Positions 2,485 to 64,000 of a stretch of DNA of 64,000 nucleotides are shown one piece after another. The notes below the pieces were generated by a model. It worked only from the letters and a program-made list of their open reading frames with translations, was not told the DNA's origin and made no database searches. Every line of letters starts with the position of its first letter. The first letter of the stretch is position 1. This DNA is from Quercus robur (taxonomy: Eukaryota; Streptophyta; Magnoliopsida; Fagales; Fagaceae). Where the stretch lies: contig NC_065539.1 in assembly GCF_932294415.1 (NCBI RefSeq), positions 52,099,501-52,163,500 of the forward strand, written 5' to 3'. A program made the translations under genes and the position numbers.

Positions 2485-2491
<7 letters not shown>

Positions 2492-2523
<32 letters not shown>
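2492..2523. repeat. GA microsatellite of unit A
   Basis: A (GA)n tract of about 30 bp. It corresponds to the much longer tract at 5796-5872 and the short one at about 9079-9093 in the sister units, so the length has changed since duplication. Confidence 0.9.

Positions 2524-2527
<4 letters not shown>

Positions 2528-5790: not shown

Positions 5791-5795
<5 letters not shown>

Positions 5796-5872
<77 letters not shown>
5796..5872. repeat. Long GA microsatellite
   Basis: About 77 bp of uninterrupted GA. Leu/Ser- and Arg/Glu-rich reading frames across it are artefacts. The tract interrupts the same position as the shorter GA tracts of the sister units. Confidence 0.95.
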
Positions 5873-5874
<2 letters not shown>

Positions 5875-6860: not shown

Positions 6861-6907
6861 AAGAGAGAGAGAGAGAGAGAGGGCACAACGAATGATACCT
6901 ACAGCGA

Positions 6908-7541: not shown

Positions 7542-9110
7542 GTCCTATCATTTTCCATCGGAGAGGCTTTAGTCCTTAAATTAAATGCATGTGTGGACAC
7601 ACCACAAGTAGGGGTGTCAATGTTAATTTGACCCAATCAACGAATACAACACAAACATGACACGGGTTTTTGCGGGTTAGATTTGACCTTAATGGGTTTA
7701 GGTCATAAACGGGTCGATCTGAAAGTGGCACGATAAGAAACATAACATAAGCGGGTCAACCTGCGCGACTAGTAATAAACACGTTTGACATGCAAATTTA
7801 TTTGTGTCAACTCTTAATGACCCATTTAACACAACTCATTTAACTCATATAACAAATAAATATTCATTTTATTTTAGATTTTTCAAATAACTTTTATATC
7901 CAACCTATATTTTTAACTTAAAAAGAAAAGTGAATAATTACAAAATGATATAATTGTAAATTGAAACTTTATAAATCCTAGTCATGATCAGTCTACTGTT
8001 TGCACCAACTTTTTCAATATGATCAAGTTGTGTGGATTTTATATTTTTGTTGAACTATGTTATTTTGAATTTGGATTGAAGTGTATGCATTTCTTTTGGA
8101 GTGTAAAGATTTTATTTCTAGATTGATGTTATATTTTTGTTGAACTATGTTATTTTGAATGTGGGTTGAAGACTTAAAGTGTATGTTATATTTAATATTA
8201 AGTGGGTTGAAATGGGTTGTGTCACATTTTTGTCAACTTAACACAACCCGTTTATTAAGCATATCAAGTGCATTGGGTCGTGTCAACCCGCTTCATTGAC
8301 AGGTCAGGTTAGAGTTGAAGAGCCATGACACAATTATTAAATGGGTCGGGTTTGGATTGAGGCATTTAGTCGAATACTCCTACCTCGACATAACCCAAAC
8401 CTGACATGCTAATGCGAATTGACACCCCTACAAGTGAGTAGATTTCCACATCATTCAATTGAATATGTGGACACACCATTTGCAAGCTGTCGTTGTCTCC
8501 TTTTCTTATTCATCCAATGCAGCAAGTAACAACTACACATTTTCGTAATTAAATTTCATAGGCCTCTCAATTGTGCATAACCGATTATCTTTTAGGGTGA
8601 AATGTAGTTAATACTCTTGAGATTTGAGTTAATACCAGTAAGCTCTAAAACTTTTCAAAACTAACCAACTTGGTCCCTGAACTTGATTAGACCCTAAACT
8701 ATTGCTCATTCTTCTGCTATCTCTCATGGTGATTATGAACAGAGTTGGTTAGTTTTAAAAGTTTTGGACTTGACTAGCATTAGTCCAAACCTCATAGGTG
8801 TTAATTGTATTTTATCCTAACTTTTATTAGTAGTAGATTTTGTCTCATAACAGTTCTAGAAATTTTTATTTAAAATGATCATTAAGAAACATAAATCATA
8901 CAAAATCTAATAAAAATAGAACTTGAATATATCAACATCACCACACACAAAAAAAATGCATAAAGTTTTACAATTTCTTTTTACTAACAAACTAAAAAAA
9001 CAAAAATGAACTTAGGAGAGATAAAATGGGAATTAAGAATGCTGAGATGGGAGTAACAAAATAAGAGAGTTTAAAATGATGAGAGAGAGAGAGGGCACAA
9101 CGAGTGATAC
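7542..9110. repeat. Diverged repeat core, copy C
   Basis: Matches 1560-2557 and the corresponding parts of unit B. It starts abruptly at 'tcctatcattttccatcgg', straight after the segment-X hairpin, so the 5' half of the unit is missing here. It contains the 820-bp element at 7610-8429. No gene. Confidence 0.6.
7610..8429. mobile_element. Non-autonomous inverted-repeat element, 820 bp (hAT-like ends)
   Basis: Perfect terminal inverted repeats AGGGGTGTCAAT / ATTGACACCCCT, flanked by the direct repeat ACAAGT (7604-7609, 8430-8435). Sister units read 'ccacgagtgag' uninterrupted at this point. The inside has repeated 'gggttgtgtca'/'tgacccattta' words in inverted order but no coding region. The ends match the TAGGGGTGTCAA-type termini of plant hAT relatives; the visible duplication is 6 bp rather than the usual 8, so the class is tentative. 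Confidence 0.7.
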
Positions 9111-9847
9111 CTATAGCAACTGCAAAGCTGAGGAAAGCAGAGCTGCCAATGCTGCTGAGGAGAATTCATAGTCACAGTATCTCTTGTGGTTCCATTTTCT
9201 AGAAAAAAAATGAAATTAAGTATTATTTTTATAGAATGGGTCGAATGAGTTAAGAATCTAAATGATTAAGGTTTTTTTTTTTTTTTTTTTTTGAATGAGC
9301 TTTTTGTAGAATATTTTGTTCATTTATTGTTATTTGACCTAATCTTTTTGTTGTTTGGGCTAAATTTTTGTAATAGGAGCACAACAAATTGTCACAATAT
9401 TTTCATGACTAATGAGGTGTTAGTCCCTCATAGGCTAAATAAAATAATAAAATATTAGACTAGACCCAACATAATTAAAAACAAGGGTGTTGTAAAATTG
9501 TTATGAGATTTTGTTGTATTCATAAAATTTCTATAATTTTTATTGTTATTATTTGTGCTTTCATTTTTTTTTTATGGTTTACAGTGTTAATAATTAAGTT
9601 TGGAGGCCAAGATTATTTTTATTAAACCAAAATTTTTGAGATTTTCAAGCAAGAGAGTTCAACATTTTGTTTAGAGTAGTTAAAACATGTTAGTTTAAAA
9701 AATTATGTATATAAAAAGGTTTTTTTTTTTTTTTTTTTTTGTGCAAGAAAATATAGCCGCCGCTTCATAAAGAGCTCCCTGCGTGTTACAGATGTTATCA
9801 TAAATTATGATTAACATGTGTAACAGGCAGGGAGGATCTTTATTAGT
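9111..9847. repeat. Repeat segment X, copy 2, with hairpin
   Basis: Second copy of 6908-7541, ending in the same hairpin (about 9768-9840). It has a longer poly-T run near 9268 and another near 9720. After it the repeat array stops and unrelated sequence begins. Confidence 0.65.
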
Positions 9848-10334
9848 CACCCAATTTTCTTATTTTTTGTTTTTCCGTTTCTTCTATTTGCACTGTTAGT
9901 TGGTTTGGGGTTTCCTCCTCCTCCTACACTCTTTCTTTTTTTTCTTTTTCTTTTTTTTTTGGCTTCTCATCTCACTTTTTTGTTTTTATCTGTTTCTTCC
10001 ATTTTCATTCTTTTTTTTTATGGCCCATTTATTTTGGATAATTTTTGCTTGTGCTTTTAAAAAATTTTAGAAGTTTCCGTACACAATTTTTTAATAAAAA
10101 ATGTGTTACTTTCTATTTTATTTAATAGTGACATAATTGTAAATTTATACTAACTTCATTTTTCATATTCTCATTTGTCTTTTTAATCAAACAAATGAGT
10201 TCTCTATCTCTCAACTTTTCCATCTTCTAACGAACCACATATGAGAGAAACTATATATGTTAAATCCTCTTACTTTTCTATCACTTTCTCATTTTTTATT
10301 CTCCCATTTTTCTACTTCTCCAAGCAAACAAACC
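9848..10334. other. Pyrimidine-rich spacer with a dispersed repeat
   Basis: The first 170 bp are TC- and T-rich. About 10130-10330 is the reverse complement of a dispersed family also seen at 21129-21360 and 27868-28080 (words such as 'ggttggaaagatgg' and 'gaaaattgagagg'). No gene is seen. Confidence 0.5.
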
Positions 10335-41022: not shown

Positions 41023-42265
41023 AGATCGTGTATCACATTAAATGATAAAGTCTTTACAACCACACAATTCTCTATGCATCTACAACCACACATTTCCTTA
41101 TAAAATGAAGGAAGATTCTTTGTTTAGACTCTCTCTCTCTCTCCAACTCGCATTCTCTCTCCCCATTACTAAGTATAGAACTAACTTAAGTATTGGAGTG
41201 CTTACTGTCATCTATTGCGGTATTGACTCTTCTTTATGCAGGACCTAGGCTGTGCCAGACTTCAACGGAGTTTCGTCTCCTACCAAACAAAGTTTACATG
41301 TTTGGTACTTGACTACGTACATACATTCAGGTTCCAGTCTCATTTGCATTATAGTGGAAAAGTTTCTGTACCGGATTGGCTCCAATACCATACTCAACAC
41401 ATGCAATTCATGGTATTGCTACCAACTTGTATCCACTAAAAGCTTCTCCACCTACAGTAAGGCACATTATAATTTATTGTTCCACCTCTTTTACATGAAA
41501 GCTGCGTTAAACTTTGAATAAAGGCTACCGTAGCTTTGACGTTGCAATGTTTCATTTCTTAGACTTCAGCTGTAAGCAAGAGATACAAGGCCACTTGAAT
41601 TTTCCAAGGCCTTTTCTTGCATTGAGAGCAAGAATAAATCATTTGCTTAGCTTTTGCTTTAATAGTGAAACTGGGGGCATGATTGTTAACATGCTCCTCT
41701 TCACAACTAGCTCTCTTTGGGAATAAATCACATTTCATTGATGTCAACACTCAATACACCCGCAGAAATATTGAATTCGAATCAACCACTTTTATAAGTC
41801 ATAAATTTAAAAATCAATGATTCTTACCTCTAAACCCAAGAAAGACAGAAAGTATCCATACATATGATTGAACCAAATTTTTCATTTCAACAAATTAGAA
41901 ACAAAAAAGTTAATGAATGCTGCAATATTGGTTTATGATTTTTTTTTTTTTTAATTTTTATAAGAAAATAAAAAAATAACTGGTTTTTTTTTTACAATTT
42001 TTCTATATTTCCCATGAAAGTGATATCAAGAAATTCCTAAAATGATCTATTAACAAATGCCTTAAGAACACCGATATATATATATATATCAAGAAAATTG
42101 CACTCAACTCCCCTAGTTTGGAATAAGACTTTTACCTCCTCTAAAATGCAAATGATTTATACTTATAAAGTTGAATTTATTCAATCATTTGTTGGCCTTA
42201 TTTCATGCCAAATTTGTTTGTATTTTAGCAATTAGATACCCTATATTTACGTAGGAATCATATAA
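41023..42265. other. Upstream region of CuAO1
   Basis: Contains a CT-rich patch near 41130-41160 and, at about 41930-42085, a diverged copy of the dispersed repeat also found at 22290 and 27540. No gene is seen; frames on both strands are short. Confidence 0.4.
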
Positions 42266-42269
42266 GGAT

Positions 42270-43620
42270 TGTGTATGAGAGAGTGTGACAAAAACTCAAG
42301 ATGTGTGCAATCAAAAGAGTCTCGCGACTAGATCTCGCAACTGACTCACGACTGGCAAGTCGCCAAAGTGGCACACATATGAAACATGCAGGGAGCTGAA
42401 AGGTCATGACAGCTAGAGCACTATTGGACAAAAATATACAGTCTGGCCAGGTAGTTAGCTCTCGACTTGTTCCAGTTGCGAGGCTGAGTCGCCAGAATAC
42501 CCTATTTGGATGAAACCTGACTTTTCACATTCCTCACATACGCTACTATAAATACCCTTATACCTACGAAATGTAAAGAGCTTCCAAAGAGAATTTTGAG
42601 AGAGAAACCCTAGAGAAAAATAAGATTGACTCATCCACAATCTTCATTATTTGATTCTCCAAATTCCTCTACTTTCACCCTCTCCATTGACATATCCTTG
42701 AAAGGTACATTTTGTCAAATCCTTATCTCACCATACCCGTGTCTGTGATAAGGTATTTTGGTGCTTAGGAAGCAATTCAGAGATGACCAATTTACTTGAT
42801 TGATGCAATGGGTTTATTGCGGGATCTGGGAAGTTAAAGAAGACAAGGTTAGGCGTAATCCTGTTAGAGCATGAAGCTTGGAGGGCTTAGGTGCATTGGA
42901 TAAATTAGGTTTAGAGGGTCTTCTACTATTTATGTATCCTAACTATATTCTTTAATGGATCATTTGACCGCTTGGAGGGCAGTGGAGAGGTTTTTTACTA
43001 AGTTCTTCAATTTCTTCTTCGATAACACGTGCCAGTGTTATCTTTGTATTTGCATCTCTCTTCCCTTACTTTTTACCTTTTAATTGATGCCGTGTTTGTG
43101 ATTAATTATGGTTTAAAGAGTTTTACCTATTTGGTTATAGCTTATATACATCATTCCACACATATATTGTTTGTGTATAAGCTTGTATTGGTGTTGTTAA
43201 ATTTGGGGGTCTAAACATTTATTAGTGTTTTACACACTAATTGAACTTTCAATTGGTATCAGAGTGGGTGCACTTGTTATGGTTTCATTACCTAAGTGTG
43301 ATCCTAGACCCTTTAGCTACAAATGAAGCTTTTAAATGTTTGTGATAATGACTCTACGAGTATGTTTGAAGATTTTCCTAACAATGAACTTCTAGAGTTT
43401 GCCCAAAAAGAGATTTTAATAAATACTGAATTTCCTATAAAAGGAGGTGTGGATGATAGTTTAATTGGATGTAAGAGAGAAAATTCAAAAAAAAAATTAA
43501 AACTTCTTTTTAGTCATTTAGAGGAGGTCAGTGCAAATGGTTTGCAGTTTAAGAAAGATGAGTGTCTTATTCCATACTAGAGGGAAGGTAAGTGTAATGG
43601 ATTAGACTAGCAGTCAGTAG
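42270..43620 (+). mobile_element. LTR retrotransposon fragment: LTR plus primer-binding site
   Basis: A likely LTR starts near 42270 ('tgtgtatgagagagtgtgac', start uncertain), has a TATA box 'ctataaataccc' near 42547, and ends ...GAACTTTCA at about 43251. TGGTATCAGAGTGGG follows at once (43254-43268), the plant primer-binding site complementary to the initiator Met-tRNA end. Downstream is a possible gag start ('MVSLPKCDPRPFSYK' then a stop) and an 85-codon frame (43323-43580) of no known family. The rest of the element and the second LTR are absent. Confidence 0.7.
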
Positions 43621-46318: not shown

Positions 46319-49300
46319 TTAGACCACTTTCAAAATGGAGCAATTAAGCCTCATGACATCTTGAGGTGGTTTTACCTTTAGCACCGGATTGCTCTCGAAG
46401 AAATTTGCTGGCCTCAGCTCAAAACCACTGCTCAGCGTAGGCATCAATGGAAAATCTTCTTGGTAAGGTGCATGATGAAACCCCAACGTGTACCATACCA
46501 CAATGTCCTTATTTTCTATCTCCCTATTCCTGCATTCACAATATATAACAATAAGAATTTTTAGGATAAATAGAGGATGATTAACGCATAAATCCCTACT
46601 ATCAATATGATTAGTTGGCTAAGTTTCCAATTAGCTCAAATGGTCATAATAAGATATTTTCTATCTCCCTATTCCTGCATTCACAATATATAACAATAAG
46701 AATTTTTAGGATAAATAGAGGATGATTAACGCATAAATCCCTACTATCAATATGATTAGTTGGCTAAGTTTCCAATTAGCTCAAATGGTCATAATAAGAT
46801 ATTTGAATTTGAATCTTACTTACATCAAAAATCAATTAGTATCTTGACATGATGATAAAAAACAATCACCATAGAACAGATACTATAAATTCAAATCTTA
46901 TTGTATCTATATATATATATATATATATATATAAATGATCAGTGGAATGATCACAATTATAACTTATTGAAGGGTACCTTTGGCTCCACGTGGCTAAAGT
47001 GTCATCCCCTCGGCTTTGATCAACATAGAGTCCCCCAGCCCATTTTTCTGACTTGTTATACGGAGTGACCCACACATTGTACTTAGTGAAGGCTGCTCTG
47101 GTTTGGGAATAATCATCGTCTGATAGAAGTGAACCTGCCCCTGATTTGGGGATCAGACGATAGCCAACATGATTGCCCATCTTAGTCATCTTGTTCGGAT
47201 TCACAACTAGTAACTCAGTTGCCTTTGAGCCGAGTTTTATTTTTGCATCTGATTCAGTTTTAGCTGTCTCACTAACAACCCTCCAATAACTCTTCCTAGG
47301 TGAGCCGTGGTCAGGCACTTGGGTTGTTTTCAAATTGGACTTGACAAAAGAATTGGAATCACCATCCACATCAAGATCAAGGTGGTAAATTAGGAAGTGA
47401 TCATGGTTTACACCTATGGTATTTTGTGCTAATAGTGTACCATAGACTTCCTCCTCTATTTGGTCTTTGTGAGTGTACTTTGATCCCCTCACTTCTAGCA
47501 AACCAGTTAGCCCAACCTGTAATAAAAGAGTATTGATTTTTAATAATGGAGTTTTTACCCTAAGATGTTACGAATTTCACAATCAAAGTAATAAATTCTA
47601 ATTAATACGATATCACTTGTACATAGAACCATCATTAAATCATTGTTATTACTTTTATTATACATTAATCCACATTTACCACCTTAGTAATTGTGAAATT
47701 TGTTATAGTATTAGACTTAATAAACAAAGAATTAATGTCCTCTAATTTATAGATGTGGTTCTCTATTGGAAGAGTGTAAATTACCTTCAACAATGCATTT
47801 TGGCTAGAGACTTTGTTAGATGATTGAATAGCAAATTCTATTTCAAACTAAATATTCGAGTGTGTTGTATTATAAGCATGTGACTTTGGATATAATAAAA
47901 TGACAGAAAAAATTATATGTTATTTGTGTCGATTAATTTGTTGAGAATGAATCTAACATATTGGAATTAAGCTTAATTATTGTTATATTGTAAAGATACA
48001 AAGGATCTTATATATTTCAATACAATATCACTTGTACATGGAACCATCATTGAATCATTAATATTACTTTTATTATACATTAATCCACAAAGAATTATAC
48101 AACCTTAATTAGTAATTGTGAAATTTGTTATAGTATTAGACTTAATAAACAAAGAATTAATGACCTCTAATTTATAAGGTGTGGTTCTCTGTTGGAAGAG
48201 TGTAAATTCCCTTCAACAATGCATTTTGGCTAGAGACTTTGTTAGATGATTGAATAGCAAATTCTATTTCAAACTAAATATTCGAGGGTGTTGTATTATA
48301 AGCATGTGACTTTGGATATAATAAAATGAAAGAAAAAATATATGTTACTAGTGTCAATTAATAATCTGTTGAGAATGAATCTAAAATTTTGGGATTAAGC
48401 TTAATTATTATTATATTGTAAAGATATAAAGGACCTTATATATTTCAATACAATATCACTTATACATGGGACCATCATTGATATTATTTTTATTATACAT
48501 TAATCCACAAAGAATTATACGACCTTAGTAATTGTGAAATTTGTTATAGTATTAGACTTAATAAACAAAGAATTAATGACCTCTAATTCATAAGGTGTGG
48601 TTCTCTGTTGGAAGAGTGTAAATTCGCTTCAACAATGCCTTTTGGTTAGAGACTTTGTTAGATGATTGAATAGCAAATTCTATTTCAAACTAAATATTCA
48701 AGTGTGTCGTACTATAAGCATGTGACTTTGGATATAATAAAATGATGGGAAAAATATATATTACTAGTGTCAATTAATTTGTTGAGAATAAATCTAAAAT
48801 TTTGGAACTAAGCTTAATTATTGTTATATTGTAAAGATATAAAGGACCTGATATGGTTCAATAACACTAGAACTTAATTGAATCAAGGGAATAAAAATGA
48901 TGATTTACCGTAGCAATAATTGAGCCACTTTGCTTGAATTCCCAATCTATTATGTAGTCATAGTTGCCCACAGTTGACACCATCCTGACCACTAAACTCA
49001 CCTCTGGCCTAACCTCCCTTACCTGCAATCCATTTAGCTAAGCATGAGGTTTAAAATTTCAACTTTACCCAACAAAGAACCTTAAAATAAAAAATGAAAA
49101 AACTGTATTTGGAAAAATAATAATAATAATAATAAAATTTGACGTACTTTTTAAAAAGTGCAGTTTCAAAACGGGTACTTGTCATCAACCCAATCTTCTT
49201 TTTTTTTTTTTTTTTTTTTTTGATGAACATCATCAACCTAATCTCATTATCACATAAACCACCAGAAATATCATCGGCAAACATTTAAAACCTATTAAAG

Positions 49301-51866
49301 TTTTACTTAGTTTTTTTTTTTAATTTGAGAAACAAATAAACCCACATAGTTTTACAAAATTTTACTTACTATTGTTCTTGGAATAGCAGTCTCTGTGTGA
49401 CGCCACATTATATCTCCAGCATGTCGTTCAAATATGCAAAAAATTTGTGACATCTTTACTGGTTTCCCATTTTGGCCAACAACATAGGCATCCATGAACA
49501 CTGCATTTTCTGGGCAATCTCTCATTGGTTCGAGTGACACTGCACACAAACCTAACCCATATTCACCAGCATCAAAAAATGTCCTATAGTACCATTCCTC
49601 GTCTAGATCCATATATGGAACGAAGAGCTCTGACACAAACCCTTTATACAACACAGGTCTAAATATTTGCTTCTCCAAGTCGTAAATTGATGCCAAAGAA
49701 ATTATTGGACCTGCTCGCATGTCAAAACTTAAGTGAAAATCCCAGTTCGCCCACCTAATTTAAGAATGACATATGTGAATTATTTGGTCATAAAAACTAC
49801 ATAAATTTTAAGTTAAGCGTTGACTACAACGTAATGCATGTTATAAATTGATATCTTATACAAGGAAAAACAATAGCAACTGTATAAAATGTCTAATATA
49901 TTTTTGGTGAAGTTTAATTGGTCCTTTAACTATTAGTTATATCAATTTGATCCATCAATTATTACTTGTGTCAATTTAATCTTCTAAATTTCAAAATAAG
50001 TAAAATTCATCATCAAATTTCCTCTCCAATTAAATTTTAAATTTAACGAAGTTAGCTAACATGTCAAATGGAGAACACATTATAAGTTTATTATGGAAGT
50101 GTAAAGATTTTAAAATCAAATCAATTTCAATTATAAATTAAGCTAAAATTAATTTAAACGAAAAGAGGAAAATCATGAATTACATTGAAATTTGAAGGTT
50201 TTAATTGACATAATTAATTAATAATTTACTATGTATTTTTCTTTCATTCCCATCTTACAAAATATTCATCTTTTGTTAATTATAAGTCTACGTATCCATT
50301 TTAGATGTCTTTAAAATATGTCCTCATTTAAAAATACAAAAAAAAAAAAAAAAAATCAATTTCTCCATGTTTTTGTGTAAGTTTACAAAATCTTTTCTTT
50401 TATATAAATGGATAGTAGGAGATGAGGACGTGGAGTTCCTACCACAAATATAAAGCATCACAAAATATGTCATTACTCATTACCACCTAGCTAACGATCA
50501 TTTGAAACACAAACATCTAAAATACTTACCAAATGCCTTTATTTCATCTTTACAAGTTTGGAGCATTAAATAGGAGTTAATATTACTCTAACTACCATTA
50601 CAATGTAATCAATATTTATGTTATTAAAAATAAATTTTGGTTCACTTTTCAACTTAAAACAAAAACAAGTGAGTTTCTTAAAGTTCTGTTTTTGGACAAT
50701 GCTAAGCCACAACTGCTTCCCTTTTTTTTGTCAATTTATTAAAGATTGTAATTAAGTCGGTAAATTAATTATGATTGGTGCAGTGTCATTTCACATTAAC
50801 CTATCATAACTCTATTTTTATATTATAAACTCACTGCCAGATGACATATTAAGCTATCATAAGTCATAACTCTACTTTTATACTGCATTAATTACAAGAT
50901 GTCACACTAACAATTGTGAAATAAATTATATAAAAAAAAAATGGGTCAATAAAGTTATTCTTATCGTTAATGTTTAGGGGATAATCTCTTCTTATCTCAC
51001 ATGTTAATTACATTAAGTCATTAAAGGTGTTGTGGTTATCACTATCAGCCGGCAACTACAACGCAAATTTCCAATTACAAAATTAACACCTTTGCCAACA
51101 ACCAGAGATCAACGTCTTAAAAGGGAAAACATAAAGTAAGACATTTGTGAGCGAACCTAATCCATGTAGGCCCAAAAATTTTGTGGATCATCACCCGAAT
51201 CCTTTCTTTTATATAAATACTAGTCAAGGCAGCACGTGCTAGCCATGGAAAAAAAAAAGTAGTGATTAGGATCAATTTTAGATTTTATTTGTATCACAAA
51301 ATAAAGATATAAATCATTTGATTTTTAAAATACATAGAGATTTACATTAATCAAAAGAGACATTAATTTTAAGAATTTTGATAATTATGTCATAAAAAGT
51401 TAATCTCAATCGTATAAGACCGTGACAAATCTCAATCCAATATTTTATTATTTTATTTTGATCCACAACTTACACTTCAATAGTTGTAAATATATTGTAA
51501 TAACAACAAAATGTCACGACATTTTTAGTTGTACTAGATTTTGGTTATAATATTTTATTATTTTATTTTATTTTGACCCATAAGGAATTGACACGTGCGT
51601 CACAACATTTCATAATATCTCTATGTATACATTGTACTTAATTACAATGTAAATTTATATTGTAGACACAAAAAAATTGGCAAATTTTGTACACATTTAC
51701 AAAATGTGTACAATATTTACTATTTTTTGTGCAAATGTGTATAATATTAACCACTTTTATGTATTTACAATGTAAACTTGCATTGCAAGTACAAAGTAAA
51801 CATATAAAAATCTTAAAAAAACAAAAAACAAAAACAAAGTTCAAACCAATTGGCATACTTGAAGGG

Positions 51867-53489: not shown

Positions 53490-54914
53490 TTGAACTTGAT
53501 CTCTCATTATTTTCAAATAATTAGTACAATAATATAAGTCTACAATAAGCTAGCTAGTCACTAAAGATATAAATAAATCACAACTTTCAGCTATAACATG
53601 TTATCAATAAGTAAATTGTGATTTAAGAAATAGACCAAATGAGAACAAATTATTAAAAAATTTTATCTCAATTCACGTGAAAATTGTCATGCTTGTGATT
53701 TGACTCATCACAAACGTGGGGATTGAAGTGAAATTTAACAAGAAAAGAGTAGGTTTTTTTCATGGCTCTCTTGTTATAAATTGTAGGATCCCTGTCAACC
53801 AAATTCTTGTAACGAGGATGAAACATTACTATTGTGAACCTAACAAATGTGCAGAAGTTCTAACAAGGATGAGAGCCAATTCAAACCAAAAATTTTTGTT
53901 ATTTGATGGCCCACCTGTGAACCTTTATGTGTTATTGTTTTATGACACTACTGGCATGTATCATGAGAGGCCACTGTCTCTCTATGTTGACTCTATTTAG
54001 TTTTCTTTAATGAATGTCATTTTCTACCAAAAATAAAATATAAAAAAGTAGGTTCTTTTCAGACTTTCCTCGTGTGTGTTATTAATTTCAGCTATAACAT
54101 ATAGAACTCATAAACGTTCTTACCTAACTCTGTGTCCATCTATCATGAAGCTTGGTCCGTCCAGTTGCACAACAGTGATCTTCTTCAACGGCGGCAAAAA
54201 TGGTGGTTTCTGCTCCGATTCTCTATAGTCTGTCCCCTCGGCTTTCGGCATTGGAACCGTTAATCTATCCCAAAACCCAATGATCTTCATCTCTTCAAGA
54301 TCAACGGTCACCGTTACTCCCTCCAACGGTCTCATGTACATATTAACAGTCCCGTCTAAGTAAAAACACGTAACCTTCACAACCCTCTTATTGTTCCTAG
54401 TCTCACCGTACCATCCCACAGCGAAACTACCACAGACAACCTCGTTGATCTTCAAGCCTCGCTTACTAACTGAAGCAACAAAGGGAGCGTAGGCTAAGGT
54501 CAAAGCGTTTGCGGCTATTTGTTCATCGAAAGTGAGTAAAGGGAAGCCATGGCCTTTGTAAATTTGGTTGGAAATGATGAAGTGGTTGGACAAATCTACG
54601 ATAAGTTCGTGTGTTTGATGGTTTATACGGGCTATGATAAAGGCTCTGCGTTGTGGGATTTTTGTGGTGGAGTGGCTGCTGAGCCATGAGAGGAGGGTTG
54701 GTTTATCTGGGTCGTCTAGGCCTACGTATTGGAAGGTTAAGTTGTTGTTGGAGGTGGGATAGGCGTGTGTGAGAATGGTTTGGACTAAGTTGAGCTCTGA
54801 GGGAGTTAAGGGGTCTAGAGGGTGTTGTTGTTGTTGTTGGGTTGGTCGGAGAATGGAGAAAATGATAAGGAGAAAGAAGAATATCAAAATCTGGATGTTG
54901 AAAATTGAAGCCAT
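46319..54914 (-). CDS. Primary (copper) amine oxidase 2, complete, five exons
   Basis: Exons on the minus strand: 54914-54124, 49754-49370, 49022-48909, 47516-46978 and 46529-46319, giving 679 aa; all junctions are GT-AG and keep frame. Same reaction as CuAO1. The N-terminus has a hydrophobic signal ([14 protein letters not shown]) followed by a Gln run, so it is probably secreted. Catalytic parts: Asp325 in [12 protein letters not shown], topaquinone precursor Tyr413 in N-Y-D-Y, copper ligands His468 and His470 (H-D-H) and His629 (GFHHAP). Exon 3 has 38 codons exactly as in CuAO1. An extra 4.37-kb intron splits a codon just before W265, where CuAO1 has none, and it is full of repeats. The C-terminus is 18 residues longer than in CuAO1 (NCSILKVV end) and has no peroxisomal signal. 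A near-copy of the exon 1 end lies at 63835-64000. Confidence 0.93.
46512..46801. repeat. 145-bp tandem duplication across the exon 5 splice acceptor
   Basis: Bases 46512-46656 repeat at 46657-46801, nearly identical. The unit includes the first 18 bases of CuAO2 exon 5 and its CAG acceptor, so a second identical acceptor lies 145 bp upstream (exon edge at 46674). Splicing there would read [10 protein letters not shown] and then stop. Confidence 0.95.
47605..48862. repeat. Three tandem ~420-bp repeats in CuAO2 intron 3
   Basis: Copies start near 47605, 48020 and 48445 with 'atatcacttgtacat', and each contains 'gaagagtgtaaatt', 'gcattttggctagagac' and 'gcatgtgactttggatat'. Copies 2 and 3 resemble each other most (for example 'aaggtgtggttctctgttgg'). 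They fill almost the whole 1392-bp intron. No coding function. Confidence 0.9.
52228..52960. repeat. Three tandem repeats in CuAO2 intron 1
   Basis: Units begin near 52228, 52468 and 52780 with 'aagtgttgtaacattttct' and share 'tattttattattttattt' and 'gtataacaatatatatacc'. The middle unit is enlarged by a poly-A run and a (CA)n tract (about 52640-52695). A more diverged relative lies at about 51420-51620. The words 'aggcactgtagctac' link the units. Confidence 0.85.
53447..53490. repeat. TTA microsatellite
   Basis: About 14 (ATT) units within CuAO2 intron 1. Confidence 0.95.
53716..54000 (+). other. Unassigned 94-codon frame antisense in CuAO2 intron 1
   Basis: Reads with ordinary amino-acid composition (for example [35 protein letters not shown]) in otherwise AT-rich DNA, and ends in a stop 120 bp from exon 1. 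The composition suggests a coding fragment, perhaps carried by a transposable element, but I recognise no family and see no promoter. Confidence 0.3.
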
Positions 54915-55000
54915 GGAGCTACGGCCTATGAGTAGTTAGCAAGAGGGCTTTTGTGTCTGCTTCAATTGGGAGAAAATAAAATCTGGCTGTTGTATATACA
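54915..55000 (-). promoter_or_regulatory. Promoter and leader of CuAO2
   Basis: A TATATA box lies at 54993-54998, about 80 bp upstream of the ATG on the minus strand. A MITE begins about 85 bp further upstream (55084), so the promoter proper is short or includes MITE sequence. Confidence 0.45.
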
Positions 55001-55083
55001 TATGAGAAGTGTTCCTAATCTTTTTATTTTTTTTCTTTTTTTGGCAAAATCTAAACACAGTACTCTTTTTTTTTTTAATACTT

Positions 55084-55413
55084 GGGTCCGTTTGGATACA
55101 GCTGAAAACTGAAAACTGAAAACTGAAAAACACTGTAACAAAATAATTTTTAAATGTGTGAATAGTATCGTGAGGCCCATTTTTAATGAAAAAGTTGCTG
55201 AAAAGTGAAATTTGTGGATTCGTGAACAGAACACTATGTGTTGTGATTGGCTGAAAAAAATTAGAAAAGTCTAACTTTGTGGCTACTGTTCATTGAACAG
55301 TGAATGAACAGTAGCCGCAACTCTCAAAAAGGCTCAAAAACGCGTGAAAAAAAAAAAAAAAAAAAAAGGGGGAAAACGCAGATGCAAACGCGCTGGTTTT
55401 CAGCCCTATCAAA
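55084..55413. mobile_element. MITE of the 'CCGTTTGGAT' family, copy 3, in the CuAO2 upstream region
   Basis: Starts GGGTCCGTTTGGATAC and shares 'aactgaaaactgaaaa', 'aaaataatttttaaatgtgtg', an 'acgcgtgaaaaaa' run and 'aacgcagatgcaaacgcg' with the copies at 21.7, 29.7 and 63.5 kb. The right terminal repeat is lost; instead an inverted partial copy follows at 55424-55520, pairing with 55208-55310. Confidence 0.75.
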
Positions 55414-55423
55414 ACTAAGCCAT

Positions 55424-55520
55424 TCACTGTTCAATGAACAGTAGTCACAAAGTTGGATTTTTCTAATTTTTTTTCAGCTAATCACAACACATAGTGTACT
55501 ATTCACGGACCCACAAACAT
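55424..55520. repeat. Inverted partial MITE copy forming a large palindrome
   Basis: 'tgttcaatgaacagtagtca' through 'actattcacggacccac' is the reverse complement of 55208-55310. Together the two arms could form a hairpin about 300 bp across, upstream of CuAO2. Confidence 0.8.
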
Positions 55521-57060
55521 ACATATAGAAGAGAGAGGAGAAGGTCTTATAAATACTGTACCTAGTTTTATTGTACTCTTTTTTATCTATTTTACTCATG
55601 ATTGTTGGGTAGGTCGTTTAGATGGTTCTATGATGGTCGTGGGTTTAGGGTCATGGTTTTTGGTTGTGGGTTTGAACAGATAGTTAGATTGGTGATGCTG
55701 GGTTTAAATTGGTGGTGCTAGGTGGTAGTGTGGGTTAGTTTCAATTTTGGTGATTGTTGGTTGGTTTCAGAGATTCGGGGGTCAGTGGTGCAGGCTTGGC
55801 TTTGGTGATTGCATTGGGTCTGAATCGGTGGTTGAGGCTTGGGTTTCCCTAGTAATGCTGGAGAGAGAAAGGGGCATAGAGAGGAGAGAAATTGGTGTTA
55901 TTTTATGTAATATTTTATTAGGTAATTTATAACATTGTAATGGGTTGTATGGTAAAATAAGAAATGGGATGTGTGGTAAGTTATAAAATAATATGCTAAA
56001 ATAGATAAAAATAACTTTTTAGAATGTAAAATAACAAATTTTTTTAATAAATAAGCCGCTAATGCTCTTATATAAAGATATGTGTATGGTGATATTTATG
56101 TCTTTCATGTACAATTTCATGTGAAGTAAATTTTCGTATTATATATGAATCAAGTTTTGTTTTTCTTTTGCAAAAACGTTTGAAACTAAAAGTACTCACA
56201 TTCAACACAAAAATAAAAACAATCATGAGCTTATAATAAAATTTAAATTAAGCAATTCAAAATCAATTGTACTTTGGCAAGATAAGAAACCTCGCATTAG
56301 TGCTTGTATTAATAAAAACAAAGTACCACATTTTAACTAACCAAACTCAAAATTCACGCACATTAAATCATGTAAAGGCATGTATAAATATATAGTTGTT
56401 ATAGTAACTGTGTAAATTTACTTTGGCATTATTCATTTTATATTTAATTTTTTATATTTTCTTTATGTATCTCGAGAATAAAAAAAGAGCATGGATAGTA
56501 ATTGTTGGACATGAAAAAAAAAATTAAAAAAAATCAAGAAAATTTGATATTTTAATAAAATATAGAGTAAAATAAATAATCAAATATGAAGTGTTTTGAA
56601 AATTGAGTATGTAAAATAAAAAATAAAAAGTAATTTCTTATGCTAAAATAGATTAAAAAAAAAATTTGCACAAGTTGATGAGAAAATTCTTAATTAAGAC
56701 TTATGGCATGCTTAAAAACTGAGTATAAAACTTGTTAAAAACATGCATGATGCGTTACTATAAAACAAATCAAAACAAAACAAAAGCTTAACATAAAAAT
56801 TTTAAACACTCACTTATTCGTACAACCAGTTGCAGTTTTTTCTAAGATTATAACATTTCCTATCACAATTATGGCATTAACAGCCAGCTTCCCTCCTGCT
56901 AATAGAAACAAAACAGGGGGTATCAAAGGTTCCAAGATACTACAAAACAACACATTTTCCGTGCTCTCTGTAAAGGCGTGTTTAAACATCGTGAAAGATC
57001 GATGTAGTTCTAAAAGCTTGGAAGCCAGTATATCCACTTGAAGCCAAGCACCTAGACAAA
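55521..57060. other. AT-rich spacer
   Basis: The first part (55600-55900) is G/T-rich with repeated 'ggtggtg' and 'gggttt' words. The rest is AT-rich. No amine-oxidase exon is found here, which matters for the orphan first exon at the right edge. Confidence 0.45.
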
Positions 57061-60000
57061 AGCACCTTCATGTTTAGCTTTCACCACGAAGTTGACATCA
57101 ATTAATAAGGTGTTCCAAAAAAGGCCTTGGTCCATTCGTGGAGATCATCTAGTTCTAAAAAAATGGAGACCCGAGCTAGATTGGAAAGAGGTTGACTTCT
57201 CTTTGTCAACCTTCTAGATCCAAATCCATAGTCTCCCCGCCCATTGGAAATCTGAAGACAACATCGGAAAGATTGGCTCTACCGCTGGAAATGTCCTCGA
57301 TATAGACGTCGTCAACGAAGGAGGGCGGGTCTGGAGCAAGTTCATCCGTATAAAAGTCAACATCGCAAATCCTTTATGCCCACATATTTTTCTCCCACGA
57401 GCAAATTAATCTGGCTTGTGGATAAGTCTAAAATATGAGAGATTAGCAGATGTGTGTTGTAATTGTGGTCTTATTGGGCACAAAGAGAGAGACTGCCAAT
57501 CTATGGATCCCCACTACCTCTGCAATCCCTTCGAGCATCGTTTCAAGGCTACGTGCCGATTGTGACGAGCTCGCTCCAAAAGTTTACGCCGGGTTCAACG
57601 ACCATCCTCCCCAACCTTGTGACGCTCTGATAACCACGTCACCGGCCAGCACTGCGTGAAGCTGTCATACCCTCAGTACAGCCCAATCACGTGGGCCTGA
57701 AAAAGACAAATCTGCAAGTGATACACATGGATAGAGCGCACAACATTGTCCTTGAACTGTTGGACCAACCTATGCCAGCCGGCCCCACCTCACCAAGTGA
57801 TACACATCCTGCTTTAATACCCAAACTAGATAATAGATATCTCCCTTGGGCCAATATTTAGGCCCATCACTATAGAATTAAGCCTTAGTCCACCAAGTTC
57901 AACCCACCGGCTCAGTTCAAATCCAAGTCACACAAACATAGAAAGCTTTACTACCCATTTAGTACATATGTTTAAAAGTTGAAAATTGTTATTTAAAAAT
58001 ATTTGTGGAAATACGTGTGGGTGAAAAAGTGTATGAAAATACGTGTAATATTGTTTAAAAACTGAGAATTGTTATTTGAAAACACAAAACAAACACCCCA
58101 TTAACCTTTACACATCTAACCCATATACCCCAAACTCGTCCCCAACCATGGACAGCCCCGTCAACCATAACAATCTAGCCCCAAATTTCAGCTCTTCTTC
58201 ATCTACCTTTAACCTCGGCACCCAAAAGTCAAACCCCCTCAAAAGAAAGGTCACCAAAGAAGAACTAGAAACCTTTGCCAAGCATTTGAATATCTCGATT
58301 GAGGGACCTGAAGTTGTCTACTTTGATCCAGAGACCAAGGTTTTCAAACCCAGACCGTTCATTGAACCGTAAAAAGGAGAGATTCAAAATTTTTAAGGTC
58401 GAACCGAGATTGAACCGGAATCAAACCGTGATGAAATCATAATTAATTTAATAATTATTTAAATATAAATAAATATATTAAATTAGTATAAATAGAAAAA
58501 TTAAATTAAATGACCCAATTAAATATAGAAATCTATCTTTCAAATATATTTTTTTATATCATAACTTTCATAGAACAAATAAGAAATATCATATCCCAAG
58601 CATACATAGATATAATATTTCTTTATTTATTTATATATTAATTAGTTAAACTCGTGATAGTAATATTGTAATAATATAGGAATTTGAAGGATACTAAGTA
58701 ATTTTAAATTAAAATAATTATTTAATAATTATTATATACTTAATTGTATCCATTGACTCACTATTTTTCCTCTACCATTCAAACTTTGCTACATTATAAT
58801 TGTGACAAAAAAATTGTAAAATATTTTGTAACACTATATTTTTTCATTTAAAAAAAATTGTAAATATTAACTAAAAGTACTAATGGTTGAAACATTTTGC
58901 CAATTTCAAAAATTAAAAGTTTTCTTCTTTCCCAATGGCAAGTCATGTGAACCAATGCCAAGTCACATGAAGGGGCTTTGGAAACATAAAAAAGAATTCA
59001 AAACAAATCCAAACAGAGAGAAGGTGAGAAACCACAGCAGTGGAGACGAAAAGAAGAAAGAGAAGAAGGAGAAAAAGAAGAAGGAAGAAGAAATAGAAGC
59101 AGAAGATGAAGATGAAGGCTGTGATTGGCGATCTGTGCTGGGTTGCTAACTTGCTGTTTCAACTTCGCATAGCCCCTACTTTGTCATCTTCTTCTTCTCA
59201 GTTTGTTTTTTTTTTTTTTTTTTTTTTTTCCCTCACAAATCTTTTGGTTCCAGATTTGAAAAAAGTCCAATGCAAGCCAGCCAAGTGGTCAAATCATGGT
59301 TCCAGAATTTAAAGCTTGTTTTTTTTGTGTTTTTTTTTTTTTTTTTTTTTTAGGTTCAAATTCAAAAGGAAGTAGGGAATCATGAGAAGCGGTCTAATCA
59401 CAGTTCTCAGAACCGTGAGGTCCAACCTCGATTCGCACGGGTCCCTACTTTTTTCCCATAGAGCGGTTCTTGAGGCTAAAAGAACCGCAAAAATGAGTGG
59501 TTCAAGGTTTTTCTGGTCGAACTTTACAGTCCGGTCTGGGTTTCAAAACCTTGCCGGAGACAGCCACGTTGATCCCACAATCCCAACTTGAGAATTTCAT
59601 GCTCACTGAGAGAGAAAGACCCAACAATCCCTATCCCCCAAAAATTCGAGGTGAGTCCCTAAAATTTCGAGCTCGAAAAAACACATCTCAATCTACCACT
59701 TGCAATGTTTCTCCTAATTCTATATCTCATTCATCTATTGTTTTTATGGCTGAGGAGGCGGGCCTTACCATGCCCCCACTCCTCAATGAAAACATTAGGA
59801 TGGAATTGTCGAGGCATCTATAACGCCTCGACAATTCGAGCCTTAAAGGCTCAAATAAAAGGGTCCAAACCTGATATAGTGTTCTTGTGTAAAACTAAAA
59901 TTGATTTGGATCATATAGATTTCGTTTAAAGTTCTATTGGTTTTGATGAGAGCATTGTAGTTGAGTCTAAGGGCTCTGCTGGAGGTTTATGTATGATGTG

Positions 60001-61065
60001 GAAGGCAGGAATCATTGCCCAATGTGTTGAGTTCAACAAAAATCTTATTGTCATTAGAGTTTCTAACCCACTATGCGACTGGATATTGGTTGGTTTCTAT
60101 AGCCCTCCCTACCCAGCCAAGAAAAAGAAAGCCTAGGAATATCTCTCTGCTCTCCTTAACTCCTTCCAAGGCCCTTGGATATGTCTGGGAGATTTCAATT
60201 TCATCACCAATGAGAATGAATCATCCAATAAAAAAAGCGATGAATCATCAGCTCCAAACTATCTTAAAGAGCTTATGCTGGAGTTTGGTGCAATTAACTT
60301 AGGCTTTATAGGAAGTTCACTTGGGCAAAAGGCCAATGGGGAAATTCAGCAGTCAAAAGAAGGCTTGATAGAGGTATATCCAGCATTTCATGGAAACTAG
60401 CCTTCCCAAATGCATCTATTGCTCATCTAGGAGCCATTAGTTTAGATCATGCTCTTATTCTCCTAGAAACAAATCCAAAAGACACCTTTGCCCATAGACC
60501 TTTCAGATTTGAAGCAGTGTGGATCAGAGATGATAGATGCGCTGCAGTGATAGAAAAGGCTTGGAATGAAGAAGTCAGATGATCAAATTTTGTCAAGCTG
60601 TATAAAAAACAAGCTGTCACTAGAGACGCTCTCCGCAAGTGGAACAAAGAAGTTTTTGGCAACTACCAATCTAGAATTAACTCTCTGCTTCAAAAAAATC
60701 AAAGATATCCAAAATAATGATGACTCTGCGAATAATGACTTATTTGAAGCTACTTCGCAATCTAAGCTATTGAGTGGCTCCTTAGGAGCGAGATTTTATG
60801 GCGGCAAAAATCTAGGGAATTGAGGTTAAAAGAAGGAGACAAAAATTCAAAATTTTTCCACCTCTCAACCATAATCCACAGAAGACATAATCATATTGAT
60901 GTAGTTAAAAGAGAAAATGGAAATTGGGTCACAAGGTCCAACAGAATCCGCAAGAGGTTTTTGCAGCATTTCAAGGAGTTATACAAAGAAGAAGAGGTCT
61001 CTTTCCCTGACCACCTAGACAACCTTATCAAGCCATGTATCACAAATGATGAGAATTCTAACCTA
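57061..61065 (+). pseudogene. Decayed LINE: DUF4283/zinc-knuckle ORF and endonuclease, no reverse transcriptase
   Basis: Non-LTR retroelement read through stops and frameshifts. (i) 57115-57380: DUF4283-like 'RPWSIRGDHLVLKKWRPEL' and 'IQIHSLPAHW', with a TAG where Trp is expected. (ii) 57455-57496: a C-x2-C-x4-H-x4-C zinc knuckle, VCCNCGLIGHKERDC. (iii) 58076-58372: a Pro/Ser/Asn-rich frame that could be the rest of the first ORF. (iv) about 59700-60560: endonuclease of the EEP type starting MKTLGWNCRG, with 'KPDIVFLCKTK', 'GPWICLGDFNF', 'RRLDRG' and 'SLDHA', broken by at least two stops and a frame change. (v) 60817-61064: the linker before reverse transcriptase, 'LKEGDKNSKFFHLST'. The reverse transcriptase and RNase H are missing. 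It cannot move by itself. Confidence 0.8.
58373..59480. repeat. AT-rich insertion splitting the LINE
   Basis: About 1.1 kb without LINE similarity lies between the first-ORF remnant and the endonuclease. 'gaaccg' words occur near both borders (58365-58430 and 59390-59560), suggesting an inserted element with 'aaccg'-type ends, but I cannot fix its termini. It holds two poly-T runs and a Lys/Glu-rich frame (58883-59149) that is AAG-repeat-driven. Confidence 0.4.
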
Positions 61066-62451
61066 TGTTGCACTCCTACATTGGCCATAACTCGCCCATA
61101 TGGCGAGTTGTGGTTGGTGGAGGGGTGTCCCCACATGAACCCACCATCAACCACAACTCACCACATAAGCGAGTTATAGCCAATGTTGTCCCACTTTATG
61201 TGGCACAAGAATTTTTCTTCATGTTTAGGGAGTAATCTTCTTCTCCCACACATTAATTACATCAAAGAAGTCAGGGACTTTGGGGGTATCACCATCATCC
61301 CACCACTATCTCAAGTAAGACAATTCCAATTAAAAAAGCTTACCTTTACGAACAACCAAATCTCATAATCGGATTAGGATCTGGTGCAATTCACCTATTT
61401 TCTTCATAAATTTTTTTTTTTTTTTTTTACTTTAAGCTTTTACTTTTCTTAGCTTTTTTCTTAATTTTTTTTAATCAATGATTGAGATTGAAAATTACTT
61501 TTTACAACTATCAATCTCAACTTTTGATAGTAGTTGCTAGGTATTGCACTTGATCTCAATCATCTCACAATCTTGAAAGAGAAACCCAAAAATATTATAT
61601 AATTCCTCCCTAGGACCTAAGAGCTAAGACCTAATGTGGGAAAAATTATACTCCATATCAGGAATACATAACATCTCTTGCTCCCACACATTCATGGGAC
61701 CCACCTACTATAAGAGAGATGTTATATATACCTGATACAAACGTGGGCCATTGTATGCCCCAAAATTTAGGTGCTCCACACACACACATATATATCACTT
61801 AATATTTTATCTTAGGATGAAAATTTTGACAGATTTATCATTAAAATATATTTTCAGCTAATATTCTTTGTGCTTACAAATTTTTAAAATAATCAAAGAT
61901 CAATAACTATGTTTTCAGTTAATATTTATATTTCAAGTTTTTGTAGTTTGAAATTATGCATAAAAAATTATTTTATGGATTGAATTGTAGATAACATCCA
62001 ATCAGCACAAAATTTGAAATTTATATTAACAACATATAAAACATTTAGTGTTCGTTTTGGAATAGCTAATCTTGTTTTTTGTTGAAAGTGTGCTAATATA
62101 TACCTGTACATTGAAATTTTTTTGAAAATGTGAGAAAATGCAAGAAAAAATGAGGTTTTAAAAAGCTGGAAAAAAAAATTAAAAGCTAAAAGTTAAAAGT
62201 TGAAACTAATGCCAAACATGCTCCTAATCTAACGGATGGATTTCAAAATATGAATTCAATAAAAAGTTATTAGGTAATATAACATTACTTAAAATTATAC
62301 AAAGTGTAGTTTGAACTCATCCTCAAATTTATTATGCTATTAATTCATTTAATCATCTATGAGCATCATTTAAATAAGTTAAATAACACATTGAATAGAT
62401 CATAGTAGATAGTTTTATCAATCACCACTTATTTGGTAGGAGGAATTTTCC
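61066..62451. other. Spacer with a small foldback
   Basis: At 61088-61180 'cataactcgccc' and 'tggcgagttgtgg' pair with 'ccacaactcacc' and 'gcgagttatag', a foldback that cuts the LINE short. The remainder to 62451 is AT-rich with no gene. Confidence 0.5.
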
Positions 62452-62677
62452 TCCGGACCTATTTAAAAATAAACTCTTTTTCATATTACTAATATTTAAC
62501 CTAAATTCATCAGTAATTGACAAATTAAACGTCATTACTTCTAGCCAGTCATTTCAAAAGTCGAACTTTAACTATTGTTTTACCCAAAAAAAAAAACTTC
62601 AATTATTGTACTACAAAACAAAATCCTCTTATAAATTCCAATTCTTTCCTTACAAGTTACAATTATAGAATAAATTC

Positions 62678-62716
<39 letters not shown>

Positions 62717-63390
62717 TACCGTTGGTTGGAAGAAATTCTTTCCTTAATGAGTTGATATTTAATTTAATGTACTTATTTATTCTTATCAATAAAAGTTAAT
62801 TAATCTTATTTTAGTACCTTTTTAAGAGGTATGTCTTAGTATTTTTTTTAATAGAATCTTTTCAGTAGATTTAATTGTTCAATTTGATAGTTTGTAATAA
62901 TATATAATTATAATTTTTTTGGTTAAATTTGTATAACCCCATTGAAGACCTGTTAAAAATGCCCATGGGTAGCCCATTAAACCCACCTCACTAGCCCAGC
63001 CTGCTAAAACCCAAATGGGCATTGCCCATGGATAAGGCCATGGGCTAGGGTTTTTCCATCCAACCCGGCCCGACCCAGCCCATTGACTAGTCAACAGCCC
63101 ATTAAGCCCAGCCCATTAGACCCATGGGCCAAGTAAAAACGGGTCGGCCCGGCCCATTGACGAGGCCTACTCCGGACCTATTTAAAAATAAACTCTTTTT
63201 CATATTACTAATATTTAACCTAAATTCATCAGTAATTGACAAATTAAACGTCATTACTTCTAGCCAGTCATTTCAAAAGTCGAACTTTTTTTTTTCTTTT
63301 TTTTTTTGAGAAAGTCAAAAGTCGAACTTTAACTATTGTTTTACCCAAAAAAAACTTCAATTATTGTACTACAAAACAAAACCCTCTTAT
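62452..63390. repeat. ~200-bp direct repeat enclosing a GCCCA-rich element
   Basis: 'ctccggacctatttaaaaat' through 'caattattgtactacaaaac' occurs at 62452-62632 and again at 63170-63387; the second copy has a poly-T insertion. Between them lies a GC-rich stretch (about 62935-63165) full of 'gcccattaa', 'ggcccatt' and 'cccatggg' words in both orientations, typical of certain non-autonomous transposons. No gene. Confidence 0.75.
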
Positions 63391-63485
63391 CGTCTCAAAG
63401 TGTTTAATAATTTCGTAACATTGAGCACAGTAATTAAAAGTATGGGGTTTGAACAATTGAAATTTTCAAGTCGACATGACATATA

Positions 63486-63800
63486 GTGTGTGTTTGGATA
63501 GAACTTATTTTGCTGAAACTGAAAACTGAAAACTGAAAACACTGTAGCAAAATAATTTTTAAATGTGTGAATAGTGCTGTGGGACCCATTTTTAATGAAA
63601 AAATTGATAAAAAAATGAAATTTGTGGGTCCGTAAACAGTGCATATGTGCACTGTTCACTGCAGAAAGTCATAATTTACGGTTACTGTTCAATGAACAGT
63701 AACCGCAATACTCCAAAAACGCGTGAAAACCAAAAAAAAAAAAAAAAAAAAAGAACAAAAACGCAGATTTTAAAACGCAGCCGTGGATCCAAACACACCC
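63486..63800. mobile_element. MITE of the 'CCGTTTGGAT' family, copy 4, next to the CuAO3 donor site
   Basis: Ends GTGTGTGTTTGGAT and ATCCAAACACACCC, flanked by ATA (63483-63485, 63801-63803). The inside is very close to 55084-55413. It lies only about 34 bp from the 5' splice site at 63834, within the intron of the amine-oxidase exon at the right edge; the equivalent place in CuAO2 (near 54090) has no insertion. Confidence 0.85.
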
Positions 63801-63834
63801 ATAGTAGTCAAATAGAACTCATTAACGTTCTTAC

Positions 63835-64000
63835 CTAATTCCGTGTCCGTCTATCTTGAAGCTTGGTCCGTCCGGTTGCTCAACAGTGATCTTCTTCAAA
63901 GGCAGCAAAAATGGTGGTTTCAGCTCCGATTCTCTATAGTCCGTCCCCTCTGCTTTCGGCATCGGAACCCTTAATCTATCCCAAAACCCAATGATCTTCA
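63835..64000 (-). CDS. Copper amine oxidase 3, 3' part of exon 1 (runs off the right edge)
   Basis: The minus-strand frame encodes the end of the N3 domain: [18 protein letters not shown], then a Glu/Pro/Leu/Lys-rich linker and DGPSFKIDGHGIR, before a GTAAG donor at 63834. It aligns without gaps to CuAO2 54289-54124, with about 13 differences in 166 bases, and uses the same split codon (AG|G). The frame is open. On the minus strand its later exons should lie to the left, but I find none in the 8.9 kb before CuAO2. It may be an orphan exon of a broken gene or an alternative first exon for CuAO2. Confidence 0.85.

Follow-up and report, generated by a model that had tools for sequence, protein, structure and literature searches.

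PEP1 of Arabis alpina, the ortholog of FLC, has two first exons, 1a and 1b (PMC3527215; PMC5485006). In the available parts of the first of these papers they are described as lying 6.3 kb apart, with separate start sites and a common exon 2. Type II alternative first exons are common in plants, numbering 1,241 in rice and 546 in Arabidopsis (PMC2174465, Table 2), and the available portion of that survey often links them with putative alternative promoters and changed N-termini. The copper amine oxidase (CuAO) families of plants grow partly by tandem duplication, according to the accessible text of two family studies (PMC12058724, PMC10743698).

This study focused on a CuAO first exon in Quercus robur for which no downstream exons of its own were found (the orphan exon, or the copy). 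The locus resembles PEP1, as far as the available parts of the PEP1 papers describe it, in showing a tandem partial duplication that includes exon 1, the proximal promoter and a portion of intron 1, with copies a few kb apart on one strand and little homology upstream beyond the duplicated block. It differs in that the two overlapping PEP1 transcripts were proven by 5' RACE and cDNA, whereas the orphan exon is known from sequence alone; the two oak exons are also separated by 9.7 kb, have diverged by 8% and encode two whole enzyme domains. The rice and Arabidopsis first exons are likewise transcript-defined, unlike the orphan exon, and no word starting with 'duplicat' or 'tandem' occurs in the available text of PMC2174465. 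As in the plant tandem CuAO clusters, the locus lies within a cluster, here of eight exon-1 copies on C6, but the accessible parts of PMC12058724 and PMC10743698 mention no intact first exon that lacks a catalytic half. A literature search combining amine oxidase, alternative first exon and plant gave no plant CuAO case, judging by title.

The window, the whole stretch of 64,000 nucleotides that was analysed, corresponds to C6:52099501-52163500 (plus strand), and positions above 64000 are window-equivalent coordinates to its right. Its minus strand carries two copper amine oxidase genes, CuAO1 (start at 40937) and CuAO2. The latter was rebuilt with five exons, GT-AG borders and a 4,369-bp intron 1, encoding 679 aa without an internal stop. 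The exons of CuAO2 and the orphan exon are as follows.

54914-54124, minus strand: CuAO2 exon 1, with the N2 and N3 domains, a signal peptide-like start (by eye) and an end in phase 2
49754-49370, minus strand: CuAO2 exon 2, with the first CuAO acceptor of matching phase that follows the orphan exon on its strand
49022-48909, minus strand: CuAO2 exon 3, containing GNYDY
47516-46978, minus strand: CuAO2 exon 4
46529-46319, minus strand: CuAO2 exon 5, ending at the stop codon
63835-64613 (window-equivalent; C6:52163335-52164113), minus strand: the whole orphan exon, 779 bp from ATG to donor, open

Pfam identified both domains in CuAO2 exon 1 (PF02727, E 6e-17; PF02728, E 2e-18). Pea seedling amine oxidase 1w2z aligned with CuAO2 residues 28-674 (E 2e-253), including the GNYDY, HDH and HH motifs, which we take to hold the TPQ tyrosine, copper histidines and base aspartate of the catalytic domain, GNYDY in exon 3 presumably being the TPQ-site motif. 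Because its five exons lack an internal stop and the alignment includes these motifs, CuAO2 looks intact. Two of its introns have features of their own: about 500 bp of intron 1 (53585-54100), lying between 15-bp direct repeats (TTTCAGCTATAACAT), is probably an insertion, and in intron 3 (47604-48876) two copies of about 860 bp, 91% identical and offset by 415 bp, form a short tandem array.

An earlier, sequence-only reading of the window had noticed at its right edge (63835-64000) an exon about 92% identical to the end of CuAO2 exon 1, open and with an intact donor in the same phase. These points were borne out: the two differ at 13 of 164 bases (92%), the frame is open, and the exon ends ...GGA CAC GGA ATT AG/GTAAGA, in phase 2, with a donor octamer (AGGTAAGA) identical to that of CuAO2. 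Chance similarity was ruled out by blastn of the exon against the window (E 7e-63). The exon continues beyond the window edge, as a search of the whole assembly (785,749,727 bases in 42 contigs, ~786 Mb) gave 92% identity over 783 of the 784 queried bases at C6:52163343-52164113. The rightward extension that the earlier reading had proposed disclosed a complete exon 1 preceded by a matching leader of 92 bp. Stops or a missing start, which it had thought would speak against use of the exon, were not found; the ATG lies at 64613 (C6:52164113), there is no stop, and two 6-bp coding indels separate the exon from that of CuAO2. The encoded 264 residues match CuAO2 at 88-90%, and membership of N2 and N3 was assigned to the copy from its 90% identity to CuAO2 over all 264 residues, the Pfam scan having been run on CuAO2 exon 1. 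Altogether the matching block (63809-64705 against 54098-54998, 90% identity) spans the leader, exon 1 and 26 bp of the intron.

The 5' leader bears on the suggestion that the orphan exon might have its own promoter, which stood in part. Beyond the shared 92 bp the upstream DNA does differ, no similarity of at least 60 bp between the copy and the upstream DNA of CuAO2 being listed, but the 92 bp, with a TATA-like stretch (by eye), are common to both genes. Between the two leaders there are four gaps, of 1, 1, 2 and 6 bp (K 0.16), and the copy has two ATGs that are absent in CuAO2 and by position lie at -44 (out of frame) and -15 (in frame).

Directly after the donor of the orphan exon there is an in-frame stop (AGG TAA), and the same stop follows the CuAO2 donor. 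The exon could thus be imagined to encode a stand-alone secreted N2-N3 protein of about 260 aa, ending at AGG TAA, that might act on CuAO dimers or bind elsewhere. The frame is open from ATG to stop and the sequence is constrained (see below), as such a protein would require. Against this, the donor has been kept identical although a single-exon gene does not need one, and the stop has a chance counterpart in CuAO2. We know of no family of stand-alone N2-N3 proteins, and consider this explanation improbable.

The orphan exon has the layout of an alternative first exon, being upstream of CuAO2 on the same strand, with an intact start, an open frame and a phase 2 donor fitting CuAO2 exon 2. When joined to CuAO2 exons 2-5 it gives 2028 bp, encoding 675 aa without an internal stop. 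The junction, for which the coordinates 63835 to 49754 had been given correctly (exon 2 begins at 49754), would span 14,080 bp. On this evidence splicing to CuAO2 exon 2 is possible. A functional alternative first exon with its own start site would then be a plausible, if somewhat doubtful, reading, and the product, with similar doubt, would be a second CuAO that combines another N-terminal half (signal peptide, N2 and N3) with the same catalytic half and is controlled by other upstream sequences. A read-through transcript would be expected to skip CuAO2 exon 1 and splice to exon 2, because a first exon has no need of an acceptor. The retention of 92 bp of core promoter-like DNA, with different DNA upstream, also fits, and the PEP1 layout, as given in the available parts of PMC3527215, provides a precedent. 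However, an intron of 14.1 kb would be more than twice as long as the largest first intron among five relatives (about 0.5-6.0 kb by their match coordinates, three of the five being broken), that of CuAO2 being 4.4 kb; an 18-kb gap belongs to another broken copy. Six AATAAA motifs lie on the transcribed strand between the copy and the CuAO2 ATG, with 19 more in CuAO2 intron 1, and the ATG at -44 in the leader is out of frame.

A catalytic half belonging to the copy was sought in the spacer, in the neighbourhood and across the assembly. The view that no CuAO exon occurs from 63.8 kb to the CuAO2 ATG at 54.9 kb was upheld, as tblastn with CuAO2 and CuAO1 exon pieces over 54914 to 63834 gave no convincing CuAO exon, the best chance-like match having an E of at least 0.019. 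With the whole CuAO2 protein (E ≤1e-3), window-equivalent positions 1-113,800 returned only the exons of CuAO1 and CuAO2 and the orphan exon. These searches rule out exons of the copy hidden in the spacer on either strand, and no exon of its own was found that would supply a catalytic domain (TPQ tyrosine, copper histidines, base aspartate). Nor did the spacer yield traces of exons 2-5, the final 1.2 kb of intron 1 or the 3' flank of CuAO2, and a scan by a crude rule for acceptors near the orphan exon gave only eight short frames, none CuAO-like by eye.

The genome-wide search for sisters covered exons 2 and 4, with a tool that scores the best candidates only. CuAO2 exon 4 DNA (8 matches) found itself and then at best 75% identity over most of its length, plus one 80% piece of 61 bases; exon 2 DNA (11 matches) found itself and then at best 73% over most of its length, plus one 82% piece of 81 bases. 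Beyond CuAO2 itself neither exon gave a long match above 75%, so these searches did not reveal a catalytic half for the copy. The earlier reading had also allowed that the copy's own exons might turn up elsewhere through an assembly error, but no close sisters of exons 2 and 4 turned up in the assembly. A variant, that exons 2-5 of the copy are present in the plant and were lost or collapsed in the assembly, seems very unlikely: a single assembly underlies the result, but the window and the adjoining 50 kb on its right are free of N, the three contigs with length shown measure 54.6-86.5 Mb, and no isolated match to exon 2 or 4 near 90% was seen.

As the sequence-only reading had described, the spacer between the two first exons holds a MITE, a LINE-like element and AT-rich DNA; it also contains sequence from the copy's first intron.

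63809-63834, minus strand: start of the copy's intron 1 (donor GTAAGA), 26 bp, 92% identical to CuAO2 intron 1
63491-63803, no strand assigned: MITE, about 30 bp inside the copy's intron 1, with terminal repeats GTGTGTTTGGAT and ATCCAAACACAC
61218-61358, minus strand: probable intron 1 remnant, matching CuAO2 intron 1 at 50967-51104
61083-61187, no strand assigned: near-perfect hairpin (fold-back), lying where the intron remnant meets the truncated LINE; limits read by eye
57140-61080, plus strand: degenerate LINE-like element with a zinc knuckle (PF14392, E 3.5e-10), limits approximate

The MITE has a probable ACTAT target duplication (read by eye), and further pieces of its family occur elsewhere in the window. 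The presumed intron 1 of the copy also contains a local duplicate of about 140 bp (62447-62590 and 63170-63370, by eye). Past the MITE, alignment of the copy's intron with CuAO2 intron 1, with and without the presumed inserts, did not rise above shuffles; against the CuAO2 5' flank the score was 37, with a shuffle null of 31 at 95% and a maximum of 41.

Further in, 61218-61358 aligned with 50967-51104 of CuAO2 intron 1 on the same strand (145 columns, 70%, E 4e-8; 80% without gaps, K 0.23), at about 2.5 kb past the donor in the copy and 3.0 kb in CuAO2. In a genome search, at the sensitivity of the tool, each of the two segments matched only itself; because the search missed the 70% partner, other relatives of the pair at such distance are possible. 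The extended window and the stretches around the relatives gave no further match for either segment. In a control BLAST of CuAO2 intron 1 against 49 kb on the right and 46 kb on the left, other hits appeared, some of them stronger, with E values down to 1e-21 (repeats at 7-9.5 kb), none of them arising from 50967-51104. Parts of intron 1 are thus dispersed repeats, but 50967-51104 apparently is not, as the control hits avoid it. The K of 0.23 is compatible with a single event together with the leader K of 0.16 and the exon dS of 0.166. Judged by these matches, 61218-61358 is a probable remnant of duplicated intron 1 and suggests that roughly 3 kb of that intron were duplicated as well. The duplicated block comprises exon 1, the proximal promoter and part of intron 1, of which 26 bp are certain and 61218-61358 probable. 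A duplication of exon 1 only, 0.9 kb long, is less likely given the intron match.

Next to the remnant, the hairpin has a fold energy, as RNA, of -66 kcal/mol (61076-61195). In the LINE-like element an endonuclease hint (E 0.12) and DUF4283 were below the Pfam cut-off, and the pieces scanned gave no reverse transcriptase match. This element also seems to lack its 3' end, at about 61.1 kb, and that intron and LINE break off together suggests a junction formed by rearrangement. The MITE copies at 55.1-55.4 and 63.5-63.8 kb were considered as sites of a recombination, but this was rejected, as both copies and the spacer between them are still present.

The strength of selection on the orphan exon was examined by comparison with CuAO2. 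Over 259 codons, dS was 0.166, dN 0.045 and dN/dS 0.27 (bootstrap 0.15-0.48). In neutral simulations with 52 substitutions a mean of 35.8 amino acids changed, against 26 observed (P 0.0012); the open frame is by itself weak evidence of constraint (P 0.16). Changes were polarised with seven distant exon-1 relatives, 49-66% identical to both copies, a distance at which synonymous polarity is unreliable. This assigned 13 non-synonymous and 5 synonymous changes to the copy and 10 and 16 to CuAO2, with 6 unresolved (2 of them non-synonymous) and 2 without an outgroup. At the 56 columns that do not vary in four outgroups, each copy had one private change and five changes were common to both.

That the exon is a long-dead partial duplicate, neutral since birth, is a reading that draws on the missing partner exons, on the apparent breakage of four of the eight nearby exon-1 copies and on a non-synonymous to synonymous ratio of the copy branch near the neutral one. 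It has difficulty with the number of changes. About 45 non-synonymous changes are expected on one neutral branch, against 13 observed on the copy (15 with unresolved changes) and 26.5 on both branches, so that an always-neutral copy has a Poisson P of 2e-8 for 13 changes and 2e-7 for 15. With the uncertainty of S included, P was 8e-5 for 13 changes and 6e-4 for 16, and even if all 26 had fallen on the copy it would be 0.0015, or 0.029 with that uncertainty. Because 13-15 changes stand against 45 expected, the neutral share of the copy branch is about 0.09-0.17 and at most about 0.3-0.4. Coding indels are also limited to two of 6 bp, compared with four gaps in the 92-bp leader, and gene conversion from CuAO2 would mimic this pattern only if the leader had also been reset. 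An exon dead from the outset is thus hardly to be expected. As to the earlier suggestion of a dead partial duplicate, old death is contradicted by the low non-synonymous load, while a recent loss of exons fits the same pattern.

A judgement of death from the 166 bases visible in the window was set aside, that test being too weak to decide; the last 166 bases alone gave a dN/dS of 0.41 and could not reject neutrality (P 0.29), which is why the whole exon was needed, and over its full length the non-synonymous load is low. The exon does not look like a disabled or neutral pseudogene, being open, with a dN/dS of 0.27 and non-synonymous changes below the neutral number, although the 13:5 ratio on its branch points the other way. 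That ratio, close to neutral, differs from the 10:16 of CuAO2 (Fisher p 0.036), hinting at recent relaxation on the copy branch, and counts against use as an alternative first exon. On the substitution evidence, the comparison shows an exon 1 that was useful for most of its history, constraint that does not itself identify the partner exons 2-5. Such long constraint, and the failure of the genome searches to find close partner exons, speak for splicing to CuAO2. The idea that selection has retained the exon ever since the duplication as a working front half of CuAO2 under its own control, giving a single catalytic half two promoters and two diverged N-terminal halves, is tenable, though we incline against it.

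The surroundings show a history of gain and loss. Searching the genome with the exon-1 protein gave 16 matches, and eight exon-1 copies remained in C6 51.89-52.17 Mb after fragments were merged. Those of CuAO1, CuAO2, the orphan and one at 51.897 Mb are open, while the copies at 51.927, 51.934, 51.996 and 52.036 Mb are apparently broken by stops or frame changes. Since loss is common in the cluster, an intact orphan deserves notice, but loss of a catalytic half would be an everyday event. At C6:51933836-51934589 a CuAO exon 1 is split over two frames, and 18 kb on there are apparently broken exons 2-5 (51952729-51954601), with nothing CuAO-like found in the gap between. At C4:20854939-20856766 there are CuAO exons 2-5, with no exon 1 found in the 21 kb around them, nor on C4 by the exon-1 search; this is possibly an orphan catalytic half, the mirror image of the orphan exon. 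Repeats are frequent as well. Upstream of CuAO1 lies an element of some 1.1-1.2 kb (42163-43314) that recurs at window-equivalent 92138-93252 and 98286-99472 (69-71%), and one of these right-hand copies matches a stretch at C6 51.90-51.91 Mb at 77%. Several repeats of about 470-600 bp, 89-91% identical, lie at 2031-9848, and a 126-aa frame at 12711-13091 matches a reverse-transcriptase-like family (PF13456, E 5e-22).

The explanation we favour, while regarding it as evenly poised between right and wrong, is that the orphan exon is a 5' stump left by a tandemly duplicated CuAO gene that lost exons 2-5 and has decayed little. What the sequence itself shows is a duplicated, intact and formerly constrained exon 1 for which this assembly yielded no close partner exons. 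An old tandem duplication in the cluster would have taken at least exon 1 of CuAO2 and its core promoter, and probably some 3 kb of the first intron, placing the block upstream of that gene on the same strand. The copied intron would end at about 61.2 kb beside the hairpin and LINE, at what looks like a rearrangement junction. A once-complete gene would have lost its catalytic half late, so that exon 1 was orphaned, hardly decayed and, we infer, without a dedicated function now. If it is transcribed, reading through the donor to the immediate stop would yield an N2-N3 protein of about 260 aa without an active site; sporadic splicing into CuAO2 exon 2 would be another outcome.

This stump reading is favoured by the complete open exon 1, the absence of close exon 2 or 4 sisters, the dS and K values fitting one event, the low non-synonymous count of the copy branch, and the rife birth and death in the cluster. 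The two upstream ATGs in the copy's leader and the ratios of 13:5 and 10:16 also agree with it. On the other side, late loss must be invoked to square the lack of decay with the lack of partner exons, and a once-complete copy is not directly shown, because the spacer holds no remnant of the later gene parts. The degenerate LINE at the junction would suit an old junction and a longer survival of exon 1 through use, and the polarised counts depend on outgroups of 49-66% identity.

The orphan exon is a real finding, but ordinary in kind until an RNA junction is shown. If not in use, it would be a clear case of a tandem duplicate observed shortly after loss of its catalytic half, and also a warning for annotation, as gene prediction could easily join it to CuAO2 or report a truncated gene. 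If in use, a plant enzyme gene would have gained a second promoter and N-terminal half by partial tandem duplication, as the regulator PEP1 did, and constraint on an orphan exon could flag such cases in genomes. The enzyme gene would then have a split layout like that of PEP1, its alternative first exon exchanging two whole protein domains.
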